DNA of 64,000 nucleotides from Pelotomaculum schinkii (GTDB taxonomy: Bacteria; Bacillota; Desulfotomaculia; Desulfotomaculales; Pelotomaculaceae), in contig NZ_QFGA01000002.1 in NCBI RefSeq assembly GCF_004369205.1, positions 310,001-374,000 on the forward strand, in the 5' to 3' direction. The stretch's first letter is position 1. Every line of letters begins with the position of its first letter. The position numbers and the translations under genes were made by a program. The notes beneath the pieces were generated by a model. That model had not been told where the DNA came from. It did not search any database and worked only from the letters and a program-made list of their open reading frames with translations. Of this stretch, positions 6,268 to 37,059 are shown piece after piece.

Positions 6268-6668
6268 TTTGTCACCCCCTTGTCTTTTGTTCTGCAATAC
6301 CGTTGGATCGTATCGCTGGATACATTTCCTGCCGTAGAACAGAAAAATGAGCGTGTCCATAGACTGGGCAAATGCTGCAAGTGTTTAAATTCTTGCCGCA
6401 ATCTTCTTGAAGTCACTCCTTTCACTTTTGCCATAATCTCTGAGGGTCTAATAGTCGGTAAGGCGTTTACGAATAGGTGCACATGGTCCGGCATTACTTC
6501 AAGCGCCACAATGATGAGTTCGTGTTCCCGGCATATCTCTTGAAGAAGTTTCCGGAACCTCTGTTCAACCTCTTTGACTAACACCTTTCGCCTATACCGT
6601 GGACAGAAAACAAAATGATAGTTGATTAGAGATACTGTGGTTTGTGTTCTTCTATACTCTTGTCCCAT
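6258..6668 (-). CDS. tnpA: IS200-type Y1 transposase
   Basis: 136 residues, the normal length for TnpA of IS200/IS605. It has the HUH motif in MPDHVHLFV (residues about 60-68), which binds the metal, and a catalytic tyrosine in IQRYCRTKD near the C-terminus. It nicks and joins single-stranded element ends. It starts at the ATG 6668, and its stop overlaps the tnpB start by 10 bases. The frame is intact, so it could still act although its tnpB is broken. The tail after the tyrosine is shorter than in some relatives. Confidence 0.88.
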   Translation of the reverse strand: MGQEYRRTQTTVSLINYHFVFCPRYRRKVLVKEVEQRFRKLLQEICREHELIIVALEVMPDHVHLFVNALPTIRPSEIMAKVKGVTSRRLRQEFKHLQHLPSLWTRSFFCSTAGNVSSDTIQRYCRTKDKGVTNCK

Positions 6669-16812: not shown

Positions 16813-16960
16813 TGGGATGTGAGACGTGGGACGTGGGACGTGGGTATATCCTGCATTCCTATGAGGTCATGCGCAAATGATTCGCAGCCACATTGGTAGG
16901 AAAAAAAACAGAACATATAATCAGAGCAATTTGCGAATGAATTCGCACCCACATTTTGGG
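16813..16960. repeat. Intergenic repeats: GACGTGG run and two dispersed palindromes
   Basis: GACGTGG is repeated three times (about 16824-16846). A 50-base repeat follows (CTGCATTCC to ATTGGTAGG, 16851-16900), then a second palindrome core TTGCGAATGAATTCGCACCC (16931-16950). Relatives lie at 14201-14216, 18167-18213 and 23463-23511. Confidence 0.65.
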
Positions 16961-32775: not shown

Positions 32776-34041
32776 ATGGCGAGATTAAATTTAAAGGGTT
32801 TTACAAAGATAGACGACCGGCGGCGGGATATGGTTCGCCTCCTTTGGACTGTCTGTGCTCTGGCCTTTGTAATCAGCATGGCGCTGTACCCGCGGGTGGT
32901 CTTTGACGGGGCGGCTCTCGGTCTGAAAACCTGGTGGAACATTGTTTTCCCCGCCCTCCTGCCCTTTTTTATTGCCTCCGAACTGCTGATGAATTTCGGG
33001 GTGGTGCACTTTATGGGGGTCCTGCTGGAGCCGGTGATGCGACCTCTTTTCAATGTCCCCGGCGCCGGCTCTTTTGTCATGATGGTCGGTTTTTTCTCTG
33101 GTTATCCAATTGGTTCCATGGTCACGGCCAGACTTCGCTCGGAGGGACTATGCACCCGGATCGAGGCAGAGCGGTTGATGTCCTTTACCAACAACTCGAG
33201 CCCGCTGTTTATGCTGGCAGCTGTAGCAATCGGCATGTTCAACAACCCCAAGGTGGGCTTATTGATTGCCGGGGCTCATTACCTTTCCAACCTGACCCTG
33301 GGTTTGGGCTTGCGTTTTTACGGCAGGGACGGCCGGGAGCGCTACCCCGGACCTCCACACAGAGACGGCAGCATTATACGGCATGCCTTCCAGCGTATGC
33401 TTCAGGTACAGCGAGAGGACCGACGCCCCCTCGGTAAAGTCATGGGTGACGCGGTGCGCAGCGCCGTAACCAACCTGCTCAATATCGGCGGCTTTATCAT
33501 TCTTTTCGCCGTAATCATCAGGCTGTTGACCACAGCCGGGGTTATTGACGCTCTGGCCGGTATATTGGGGATGCTGCTGCTGCCGCTTGGGTTCGCGCCC
33601 GGCATATTACCCGCCCTGGGCAGCGGCTTCTTTGAGATGACCATCGGTTCGAAACTGGCCAGCGAGGCGGCCGCCCCTTTGATCCAGCGGGTGACTGCCG
33701 TGGGCATGATCCTGGCCTGGAGCGGCCTTTCCGTCCATGCCCAGGCGGCCAGTATGATTGCCGAGACCGACATCAGGATGAAGCCTTTTATCATGACACG
33801 GTTGGCCCACACCGCCCTGGCCGGCCTGTACACCTACCTGGCCTGCAGCTGGTTTGCGCCGCTGGAAGAAGCAACCGCGCCGGCCATGGCTGCGGCCGGC
33901 GGGTGGCAAGCCCTGGCGCCGTACACCCACGCTAAAATCTTCGGCTTTTTCCTGGCTATCTTAGCAGGGGTGATACTTCTGGCACTGCTGGCACATTTGG
34001 CCGGCAGCCTCCGGTTGTTCTTTTTAAGGCTAAAAAGATGA
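32776..34041 (+). CDS. ylbJ: Sporulation integral membrane protein YlbJ-like
   Basis: 421 residues with about eight membrane segments and two Gate (nucleoside-recognition) domains: WWNIVFPALLPFFIASELLM, FFSGYPIGSMVTARLRSEGL, FTNNSSPLFMLAAVAIGMF, and later LLNIGGFIILFAVIIRLLTT and GLSVHAQAASMIAE. This is the YlbJ/SpoVV pattern; SpoVV moves dipicolinic acid into the forespore. GGTGA precedes the ATG. It is alone on the plus strand, divergent from gerM. Confidence 0.85.
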   Translation: MARLNLKGFTKIDDRRRDMVRLLWTVCALAFVISMALYPRVVFDGAALGLKTWWNIVFPALLPFFIASELLMNFGVVHFMGVLLEPVMRPLFNVPGAGSFVMMVGFFSGYPIGSMVTARLRSEGLCTRIEAERLMSFTNNSSPLFMLAAVAIGMFNNPKVGLLIAGAHYLSNLTLGLGLRFYGRDGRERYPGPPHRDGSIIRHAFQRMLQVQREDRRPLGKVMGDAVRSAVTNLLNIGGFIILFAVIIRLLTTAGVIDALAGILGMLLLPLGFAPGILPALGSGFFEMTIGSKLASEAAAPLIQRVTAVGMILAWSGLSVHAQAASMIAETDIRMKPFIMTRLAHTALAGLYTYLACSWFAPLEEATAPAMAAAGGWQALAPYTHAKIFGFFLAILAGVILLALLAHLAGSLRLFFLRLKR

Positions 34042-34059
34042 ACGGTAACACCATAACAA

Positions 34060-34080
34060 TGGGGACGGTTCTCATTGTAA
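34060..34080 (+). repeat. Short GGGGACGG hairpin
   Basis: ACAAT and ATTGT flank GGGGACGGTTCTC. The GGGGACGG core recurs in the large palindrome at 48111-48162. Confidence 0.4.
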
Positions 34081-34088
34081 CAAACACT

Positions 34089-34857
34089 GTTCTCGAAAAG
34101 GCTTGACTCGCGGGCTTGGGGTTATCCGGAGCGAACGAAGCACCTGGGTGCGTTCCTTAGCGCGTGCATTGCATGCAGTAAAGCTTAAATAGCGCGTAGC
34201 TACCGCATGGCTGTCTGTAGATGCGGTGGATATGATCCCCTCGTTATACAAATGAAGAATTGCGAAGAGAGCGGAGGATAACCCCAAGCCCACTACCCCA
34301 GAGGCTTTTCGAGAACGACAGACCAGAGAACTACCTCTGTTTCACTTATCACAAATACTGTTCTCGAAAAGGCTTAACTGCGGGCTTGGGGTTTTCCGGA
34401 GTGAACGGAGCACCTGGGTGCGTTCCTTAGCGCGTGCGTTGCTTGCAGAAAAGCTTGAATAGCGCGTAGCTACCGGATGGCAGTCTGCAGATGCGTTCGG
34501 CACGACGATCTTGATGCACAAATGGAGAATTGCGAAGAGAGCGGAGGATAACCCCAAGCCCACTACCCCAGAGGCTTTTCGAGAACGGCAGACCAGAGAA
34601 CTACCTCTGTTTCACTTACCACAAACACTGTTCTCGAAAAGGCTTGACTTGCGGGCTTGGGGTTATCCGGAGCGAGCGGAGCACCTGGGTGCGTTCCTTA
34701 GCGCGTGCGTTGCTTGCAGTAAAGCTTAAATAGCGCGTAGCTACCGCATGGCAGTCTGCAGATGCGGTTGGTACGACGATCTTGATGCACAAATGGAGAA
34801 TTGCGAAGAGAGCGGAGGATAACCCCAAGCCCACTACGCATGAGGCTTTTCGAGAAC
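34089..34857. repeat. Three tandem copies of a 271-bp structured repeat
   Basis: Copies at 34089-34316, 34360-34586 and 34630-34857, periods 271 and 270, with a conserved 43-base spacer holding CAGAG/CTCTG. Each copy is bounded by GTTCTCGAAAAG and its complement, then an inner 16-bp pair GGGCTTGGGGTTATCC with GGATAACCCCAAGCCC (one mismatch in copy 2). Inside lie a GAACG..CACC/GGTGCGTTC hairpin and CCGCAT/ATGCGG. Each unit could fold as one RNA or DNA stem with internal arms. A 72-73 codon minus-strand frame is carried by all three but looks like a by-product. No gene lies in 34042-34956. Confidence 0.85.
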
Positions 34858-34956
34858 CAATTATACACTTGTTTTTTAGCGGGATGAATTTAGAGCAGGG
34901 TTAAAGGAAATGCTATTAAAAGTTTGCCAGCTCATCGCATAAAGAAGGTGAATTTT

Positions 34957-37059
34957 ATGGCAGGCCTTGTCAGTTTCTTTAACCCGAAATCGGTCGCCAT
35001 AATCGGCGCGTCCAAGGCTGCTGGTAAGATCGGAAACGTGATTGTTAAAAATATGATCAGCAGTGGTTATACCGGCCCTATTTTTCCCATTAACCCCAAG
35101 GAGCAGGAAATCGAGGGGCTCGCCTGTTACCCGGCGGTGGACAAGACGCCAATGCCGGCCGAGCTCGCGGTCCTTTCCCTGCCGGCGTCCCGCACGCTGG
35201 ATGCAGCCCAGCAGTGCGGCATCAGCGGGGTTAAAAACCTGGTGGTGATCACCGCCGGCTTCAAGGAAACAGGCAAAGAAGGTCTGGAACTGGAGCGCCG
35301 TCTGGTGGAAACCTGCCGCAAATACGAAATGAGGATGACGGGCCCCAACTGTGTCGGATTGATTGATACGCACACCCCGATTAACGCCTCTTTTGCTGCC
35401 GGCTTTCCTCTCAAAGGGGAAATAGCCTTTATCTCTCAGAGCGGCGCCATGGTCCTCTCCATTCTGGACTGGAGCTACCGGGCCGGTCTTGGCTTCAGCA
35501 AGTTTGTCAGCCTGGGTAATAAAGCCGACCTCACCGAGTCCCACTTTATTGAGGACGCCGGACAGGACCCCAACACCAAGGTAATCCTGTGCTACATTGA
35601 GGACGTGGAAAATGGCGCTCATTTTTTGGAGGCAGCCCGGACAGCCAGCCGCAAAAAACCCGTCATCATACTAAAATCAGGAACCAGCCAGGCCGGCGCC
35701 CAGGCAGCCTCCTCCCATACGGGCGCGCTGGCTGGAAGCGACCTGGCCTATGAAACAGCTTTCCGTCAATGTGGTGTTATTCGCGCCAGAAGTATGGCGG
35801 AACTCTTTGACCTGGCCGTGGCCTTTGCCAGCCAGCCGGTACCTTCCGGGGGCAGGGTGGCGGTGGTCACCAACTCCGGAGGTCCCGGGATTATCGCCGC
35901 CGACACCATTGAGCAGAAGAAACTACAGATGGCGCGCTTTACGCAGGAGACGATCGAGCAACTGCGCGGCAACCTGCCCCGGGAATCCAATATTTACAAT
36001 CCGGTTGACGTGTTAGGGGATGCTAAGGCCGACCGTTTCCGCTTCTCCCTTGACAAAGCTCTGTCAGACCCCGGGGTGGACAGCGCTTTGGTACTGGTCT
36101 GCCCGACTGCCGTGACAGAACCGGTAGAGACAGCCAGAGCTCTGGTTGAGATGAGAGCGGCTCACCCTGAAAAGCCCCTGCTTGCGGCCTACATGGGAGG
36201 AGAAAAACTGGCGGAGGGAGTCAAGGTCCTGGAGGAAGCTAAAATACCCTGTTTTACCTTTCCCGAGCCGGCAGTTTCCTCGATCAGCGGCCTGACCGGC
36301 TACGCCCGCACCAGGGAACTGCCCGCCAACGAGCAGGACTTGAGTTACGAGTGTTCCAATTTAAAAAACGTCAAGGCTATCCTTTACGATGTAAGAAAAG
36401 ACAAGCGCCTGGTCCTGCTGGGCAGTGAGGCCGCTGAGGTGGTGGAAGCTTACGGCATTCCCGCCGCTCCGACAACCCTGGCGGCCAGCCCGGGAGAGGC
36501 GGCCGAAAGCGCCGGACGGCTTGGTTACCCGGTAGTCTTAAAAATTGCCTCGCCTGAGATACTGCATAAGAGCGACGTGGGCGGGGTACTCATAGGGCTC
36601 GACTCCCCTGAAAGGGTGCGCGCCGGATTTCTGGAAATCATGAATAATGTCCACCGCTACCTGCCCAACGCTGCCGTTTACGGCGTTGAAGTACAAAAAA
36701 TGATGCCCAAAGGAACCGAGCTGATTATAGGCATGAGCAAGGACATCCAGTTTGGACCTTTAATCGCCTTTGGCCTGGGAGGCATCTATGTAAACCTGTT
36801 AAAAGATGTTTCTTTCCGGCTGGCCAGCGGTCTGAACCGCGGGGAGATCGAAAACATGCTGGCCGAAACAAAGGCCTATACCCTCTTGCGGGGCTACCGC
36901 GGCGAGAAACCGGCCGACATAGAGGCCATTATAGGGATTATCGGGCGTGTGGCCCGGCTTGTTACCGACTTCCCCGAAATAACGGAAATGGACATTAACC
37001 CGGTCTTTGCCTACAACCAGGGCGCATGCGCGCTCGATGTCAAAATTACTGTATCGTGA
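34957..37059 (+). CDS. Acetate-CoA ligase (ADP-forming), fused alpha-beta
   Basis: 700 residues. CoA-binding domain (FFNPKSVAIIGASKAAGKIG), succinyl-CoA-ligase-like domains with the phospho-histidine in SSHTGALAGSDLAY (about 255), and a C-terminal ATP-grasp domain (RLGYPVVLKIASPEILHKSD, then DVGGVLIGL). It makes ATP from acyl-CoA, ADP and phosphate, yielding acetate or a relative, an energy step in fermenting or syntrophic anaerobes. ATG 34957 has AAGGTG ahead; an in-frame ATG at 34924 has none. It is followed by a P-loop/DRTGG gene 10 bases on. Confidence 0.92.
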   Translation: MAGLVSFFNPKSVAIIGASKAAGKIGNVIVKNMISSGYTGPIFPINPKEQEIEGLACYPAVDKTPMPAELAVLSLPASRTLDAAQQCGISGVKNLVVITAGFKETGKEGLELERRLVETCRKYEMRMTGPNCVGLIDTHTPINASFAAGFPLKGEIAFISQSGAMVLSILDWSYRAGLGFSKFVSLGNKADLTESHFIEDAGQDPNTKVILCYIEDVENGAHFLEAARTASRKKPVIILKSGTSQAGAQAASSHTGALAGSDLAYETAFRQCGVIRARSMAELFDLAVAFASQPVPSGGRVAVVTNSGGPGIIAADTIEQKKLQMARFTQETIEQLRGNLPRESNIYNPVDVLGDAKADRFRFSLDKALSDPGVDSALVLVCPTAVTEPVETARALVEMRAAHPEKPLLAAYMGGEKLAEGVKVLEEAKIPCFTFPEPAVSSISGLTGYARTRELPANEQDLSYECSNLKNVKAILYDVRKDKRLVLLGSEAAEVVEAYGIPAAPTTLAASPGEAAESAGRLGYPVVLKIASPEILHKSDVGGVLIGLDSPERVRAGFLEIMNNVHRYLPNAAVYGVEVQKMMPKGTELIIGMSKDIQFGPLIAFGLGGIYVNLLKDVSFRLASGLNRGEIENMLAETKAYTLLRGYRGEKPADIEAIIGIIGRVARLVTDFPEITEMDINPVFAYNQGACALDVKITVS

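Follow-up and report, generated by a model that had tools for sequence, protein, structure and literature searches.

The three tandem units located between ylbJ and the acetate--CoA ligase gene of Pelotomaculum schinkii are probably copies of a MITE-like mobile element, non-autonomous and without a protein of its own, the conserved core of which, judged from sequence, would fold as RNA or single-stranded DNA. The original prediction had proposed either a structured RNA or a new mobile element; both parts find support, combined in one element that is mobile and carries a structured core, while their being alternatives does not. The finding is more than a local curiosity, as the array is one site of a widespread repeat family. 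Because the shape of the core, and not its letters, is kept across distant bacteria, we regard these sequences not as a plain repeat but as a family of structured, mobile repeats that encode no protein and have apparently not been described before.

The tandem array and its dispersed copies

In the window, that is, the whole stretch of 64,000 nucleotides that was analysed, TRF detected a 270-base period of 2.9 copies with 91% matches at 34080-34857, and a repeat search resolved three head-to-tail units of a 228-base core plus a 43-base spacer, with copy spacings of 270 and 271 (Table 1). The tandem layout with nested inverted repeats is thus real, 43 nt separate the units at both junctions as had been claimed, and the predicted position between the two genes is confirmed by the protein-family matches of the neighbours. 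In the outer inverted pair (GTTCTCGAAAAGGCT/AGGCTTTTCGAGAAC, 15 nt, 93%), the terminal 12 positions pair perfectly, and in the inner one (GGGCTTGGGGTTATCC/GGATAACCCCAAGCCC) 16/16 positions are paired in units 1 and 3 and 15/16 in unit 2, in agreement with the 12-bp and 15-16-bp pairs first described. The core of unit 1 scored 201.3 bits against covariance model R1, which covers the inner 174 positions and was built from the window's genus, Pelotomaculum, and one further MAG; the cores of units 2 and 3 also matched this model. Spacer 1 is similar to a REP-like GAGAACCGTCCCC sequence that lies between or beside units at other sites. No tRNA was found within the 64-kb window. An IS200/IS605-family transposase gene is present on the minus strand of the window at 6291-6638 (NF033573, 145.8 bits).

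Table 1. Features of the array and its neighbours (window coordinates)
Feature	Position	Strand	Remarks
YlbJ sporulation protein gene, upstream	32776..34041	+	TIGR02871, above cut-off
REP-like TGGGGACGGTTCTC... sequence immediately 5' of unit 1	34060..34088	+	
Unit 1 core, 228 nt	34089..34316	+	outer arms 34089-34100/34305-34316; inner arms 34112-34127/34276-34291
Spacer 1, 43 nt	34317..34359	+	short hairpin CAGAGAACTACCTCTG at 34324-34339
Unit 2 core, 227 nt	34360..34586	+	outer arms 34360-34371/34575-34586; inner arms 34382-34397/34546-34561 (15/16 paired)
Spacer 2, 43 nt	34587..34629	+	
Unit 3 core, 228 nt	34630..34857	+	outer arms 34630-34641/34846-34857; inner arms 34653-34668/34817-34832
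Acetate--CoA ligase gene (alpha domain), downstream	34924..37059	+	TIGR02717, above cut-off; start may be 34960

Folding of a single unit, which the original prediction had recommended, gave -100.1 kcal/mol (z = -6.2), and none of 200 shuffled sequences was equally stable. The complementary strand also had a z of -6.2, so the folding energy alone cannot pick the strand. Among the three units, variable positions numbered 0/24 in the outer stem and 1/32 in the inner stem as against 29/172 elsewhere; the claim of little change in the stems therefore holds for the two closing stems. A protein-coding reading was rejected: a minus-strand frame of 72-73 amino acids is present in all three window units, yet it is intact in just 11 of 30 copies, indicating that no protein is encoded.

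The suggested search for further copies yielded 58 matching stretches in the 4.4-Mb P. schinkii genome, corresponding to about 40 separate copies of the 228-base core dispersed over four contigs, with more in relatives. Long copies of the core are 81-94% identical, and several sites hold two tandem copies. Alignment of the copies with their flanks revealed that the core is common to them, while the flanks are of at least two types. The long type carries CACCTGTCTCAAGAATATTG 5' of the core and CAGTTAACAATGACC... 3' of it, its ends being the halves of a GTGCGAAT/ATTCGCAC palindrome; the second type consists of REP-like GGGGACGG sequences and includes the window array. REP-like sequences adjoin many copies of the core. 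Four dispersed copies (L031, L033, L034 and L036) share the same extra segment of about 150 bases in place of part of the 5' interior, which suggests that this chimeric variant has itself spread, and deletion forms reduced to the arms were also observed (L034, L038). Separately, TGTAGGTGCGAATTCA and near variants occur about 100 times genome-wide (for example, at 16938-16953 of the window) as the arms of a different REP-like palindrome, which often neighbours the element.

Matching sites, ends and distribution

We searched for 19 flanks of element copies in the congeners G001 and G002. Many matching sites there were without the element, and alignment showed that the whole element segment was absent at sites such as L003/L114, L006/L103, L008/L110, L009/L093, L018/L094 and L020/L099; at empty sites in fast-evolving intergenic DNA, the exact ends are unreadable. 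Element copies were retained at two matching sites in Pelotomaculum species. When L007 of P. schinkii was compared with L053 of G001, the central part of the element was found to be inverted between the species with the same outer flank, reflecting either an in-place inversion or an independent insertion.

At two matching sites, two units in P. schinkii correspond to one in a congener (L011-L012/L057 and L013-L023/L054). The window's own site is also an array in G001, and the two of its spacers that can be read have one and the same sequence, unlike those of the window, a pattern that fits local duplication and homogenisation. These observations agree with the unequal crossing or local amplification initially suggested for the array, in which one copy and its REP-like spacer would have been duplicated locally and then homogenised. 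The other initial suggestion, a dedicated tandem RNA gene, is unsupported, since the array represents just one site among many to which copies have dispersed, and no promoter-like site was found at it.

Target duplications were examined in one relative, G074, whose copies end in TGATTTAACTGCAAAAAC-type inverted repeats. A duplication of at least 4 bases was present in 8 of 13 copies, compared with 1.7 in shuffled pairings, and none of 5000 shuffles gave so high a value; the duplications span 4-6 bases. The terminal inverted repeats together with the target duplications indicate that the element has transposed in G074. As in MITEs, the element lacks coding capacity and has terminal inverted repeats and target-site duplications, the last of these being a feature of the G074 copies. 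No transposase gene was found between matching ends in G074 among the 100 end sites listed of 121, and a 1.9-kb pair of end sites that had been a candidate autonomous element proved to be two distinct copies flanking ordinary genes. A serine recombinase next to a partial copy (L052/L058) was likewise discarded because it lies in the neighbouring gene, outside the element. The two contigs look identical over the compared stretch though assigned to different genera (G020 and G003); the recombinase is inserted in an L,D-transpeptidase-like gene, and the G020 sequence is possibly mis-binned. In the P. schinkii genome, a RAYT-like gene (L120) is flanked by GGGACGGTTCT repeats, a motif also present in the REP-like sequence before unit 1, and no core flanks it; at this locus, the element is not the repeat that flanks the RAYT gene, as it would be in a REP/BIME system.

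Of 113 genomes of the class, 18 had full-length matches to R1, with E values down to about 1e-17 in another family within the order. Copies often number 10-20 or more per relative genome, the richest genome having at least 24, which is the limit of candidates scored per genome. The relatives with the element include Pelotomaculum terephthalicicum and unclassified Desulfotomaculaceae MAGs, and tandem copies occur in relatives too (L161 in G100 and L199 in G041). A second covariance model was applied to a sample of 398 genomes of the phylum, where its matches were confined to the own genome and two others, both of one further order, with 10 and 7 copies; few candidates were scored per genome in this run, so weak members may have been missed. 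Shared neighbouring genes were considered between distant genomes, but in one case the copy in the same gap was in opposite orientation and in the other the copy lay in a different gap, so that these are probably independent insertions. Except for common ABC proteins, no recurrent protein family was detected among the neighbours of copies, nor was a recurrent nuclease gene. Searches of phage records, plasmid records and viral contigs gave no match, and a phage or plasmid origin was rejected.

The 4227 Rfam families gave no match to the array or the element even at permissive thresholds, none anywhere in the window at gathering scores, and none over the element at 14 representative loci (0/14); a few sub-threshold matches (mir-9242, a tmRNA-like stretch and P1) fall outside the elements. 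In the literature on these bacteria or on such repeats, as far as it was covered, no description was found, an absence that counts as weak evidence given this partial coverage. Two kinds of additional hairpin were noted in relatives. In G109, terminator-like hairpins with the same stem flank one copy on both sides (L204, L206), the stem differing between copies; either insertion duplicated a terminator or the element targets terminators. In L134 (G066), L208 (G104) and L228 and L230 (G074), the interior holds an inserted GGGGACACACCTC...GGTATGTCCCC-type hairpin, as if another repeat targets the element.

Pairing, conserved interior and orientation

The original prediction had proposed a test for covariation, and compensatory changes were found. 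In the cross-lineage alignment A4, 94.4% of cells in the closing stem and an internal GCNC/GNGC helix were paired, compared with 74.2% in shuffles, and the covariation score was 0.462 as against 0.150 (sd 0.012) in shuffles and 0.047-0.085 in slid controls. Many two-sided changes were seen in the closing stem and one internal helix, and the latter flips from C-G to G-C between lineages. Because the fitting of A4 relied on R1, a model that included part of the stem from the start, an alignment-free test of the arms was added: own 5'/3' pairs had a mean of -27.1 kcal/mol compared with -15.3 kcal/mol for cross-lineage pairs, and the own partner ranked first in 15 of 22 cases. Two-sided pair changes were also present in within-lineage MAFFT alignments that were not fitted to the model (6 in the own genus, 3 in G104, 7 in G074 and 5 in one family). 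In addition, the interior blocks UAGCNCGU, GGGCGUA and AAUUGCG are conserved; interior motifs are kept across families, while the outer ends differ between lineages. The cross-lineage compensatory changes expected of a structured RNA are therefore present, to be read with the fitting of A4 and with palindrome correction in mind: repair of imperfect palindromes by template switching could, without any selection, give rise to matching arms, although the internal helix and the conserved blocks of the interior are not easily accounted for in this way.

Stem mismatches on the plus strand showed an excess of G.T over A.C (68:36; p = 0.002 if cells were independent, which they are not). Among copies between co-directional genes in G100, G104 and G074, 32 lie along transcription and 6 against it (binomial p = 2.4e-5), whereas the window's genus is without orientation bias (12:11). 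Genes were called by simple ORF length in these counts, so single orientation assignments may be wrong. Many of the G100, G104 and G074 copies lie inside apparent operons, such as ftsW/murG, fusA/tuf and hemA/hemC, gene names that were assigned by eye to the translated neighbours. The G.T excess and the orientation bias favour the plus strand as the strand that would be folded in mRNA.

Interpretation and comparison with known repeats

We propose an element of about 230 nt, larger with its outer arms, whose conserved core measures about 175 nt. In it, a long closing stem would enclose unpaired motifs that are conserved and one or more additional helices with support. Copies would have spread by transposition, for which the inverted repeats and duplications speak directly in one relative and the empty sites speak in P. 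schinkii, with the mobilising enzyme presumably supplied in trans. The plus strand in operons is probably carried within mRNA, as the orientation bias in relatives suggests, and the fold may be kept for mobility, for protein binding or for making intercistronic insertion tolerable. It is possible, though rather doubtful, that a deeply conserved structured RNA is the mobile unit itself, borne by terminal repeats that differ among lineages and acting in host mRNAs in a processing, insulating or catalytic role, as a counterpart of SINE-like RNA elements.

Several other explanations were weighed. A plain MITE, in which template-switch (quasipalindrome) correction and recent amplification maintain the perfect long palindrome and no RNA is under selection, would account for the inverted repeats and target duplications of G074, for the arms-only deletion derivatives and for the equal folding of both strands. 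This is unlikely, given that an interior conserved across families with differing outer ends is the opposite of the pattern that importance of the ends alone would produce, that the internal helix flips between C-G and G-C, and that the G.T over A.C counts and the orientations are asymmetric between strands. According to the original prediction, a plain MITE would be left if target duplications occurred with neither compensatory changes nor a transcript; the duplications are present, in G074, but compensatory changes were found. Conserved structure and the copies retained at two matching Pelotomaculum sites could also point to a family of trans-acting small-RNA genes, with the array as a repeated RNA gene, but many matching sites are empty in sister species, the window array has no promoter-like site, and copy number ranges from a handful to about 40, all of which make this reading very improbable.

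The remaining two explanations concern the mode of movement. BIMEs form tandem arrays, as the element does, and REP-like sequences adjoin many of its copies, the array spacer being similar to the GAGAACCGTCCCC REP-like motif; with a RAYT-like gene flanked by GGGACGGTTCT repeats in the genome and an IS200-family gene in the window, one has to consider a REP/BIME-type element that a hairpin-recognising IS200/RAYT-type tyrosine transposase would mobilise as single-stranded DNA. We hold it to be quite improbable, because the core of about 175 nt is unrelated to the neighbouring REPs, the RAYT-like gene has no flanking core, and the G074 copies have target duplications, whereas classical IS200/IS605 elements are not known to leave any. 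There is only a slight chance of a retroelement or ribozyme-bearing element moving through its RNA, in the manner of an intron or SINE: the conserved interior and the orientation along transcription in some lineages would suit it, but no Rfam intron or ribozyme matched, and in G074 the inverted repeats with their target duplications speak for transposition as DNA. The mobile element with a structured core remains our preferred reading.

Among known systems, HEARO and similar structured RNAs of Rfam are multi-copy and may exist without their own protein in each copy. The present element is likewise multi-copy, structured and without its own protein, but it differs from such mobility-linked RNAs in matching none of the 4227 Rfam families and in having no recurrent linked nuclease gene. 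It resembles REP/BIME systems with RAYT in the REP-like sequences beside many copies and in its mosaic and tandem arrangement; REPs, however, are 20-40 bp long (PMC3733652), whereas the core is far longer than, and unrelated to, the described REPs, and target duplications occur in G074. In the Bacillus cereus group, BCR repeats are 100-400 bp long and mobile-like, with bcr1 averaging 39 copies per strain (PMC6542083) and having a predicted conserved fold (PMC2267715), so that the element is like bcr1 in size, copy number and predicted fold. BCRs are confined to a single species group and associated with TTTAT motifs (PMC6542083), whereas the element spans the class and one further order, a distinction drawn from descriptions and not from sequence.

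Bacterial MITEs and ERIC/RUP/BOX-type repeats share with the element a short, non-coding, intergenic, multi-copy nature, inverted-repeat ends and target duplications, the last being seen for the element in G074. Folded transcripts have been predicted for BOX, RUP and SPRITE, and some BOX/RUP repeats are co-transcribed (PMC3049150). Unlike in these repeats, it is the interior of the element, and not its ends, that has been kept across families and orders and shows covariation between lineages. As many copies occur per genome and Rfam lacks the family, it may explain unannotated intergenic sequence in the class. Bacterial MITE-like repeats are usually regarded as transposon leftovers that keep only their ends. 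The element reverses this picture, its interior fold persisting over class-level distances as the ends change, and with many copies of the relatives inside apparent operons, a working RNA in such repeats becomes testable.
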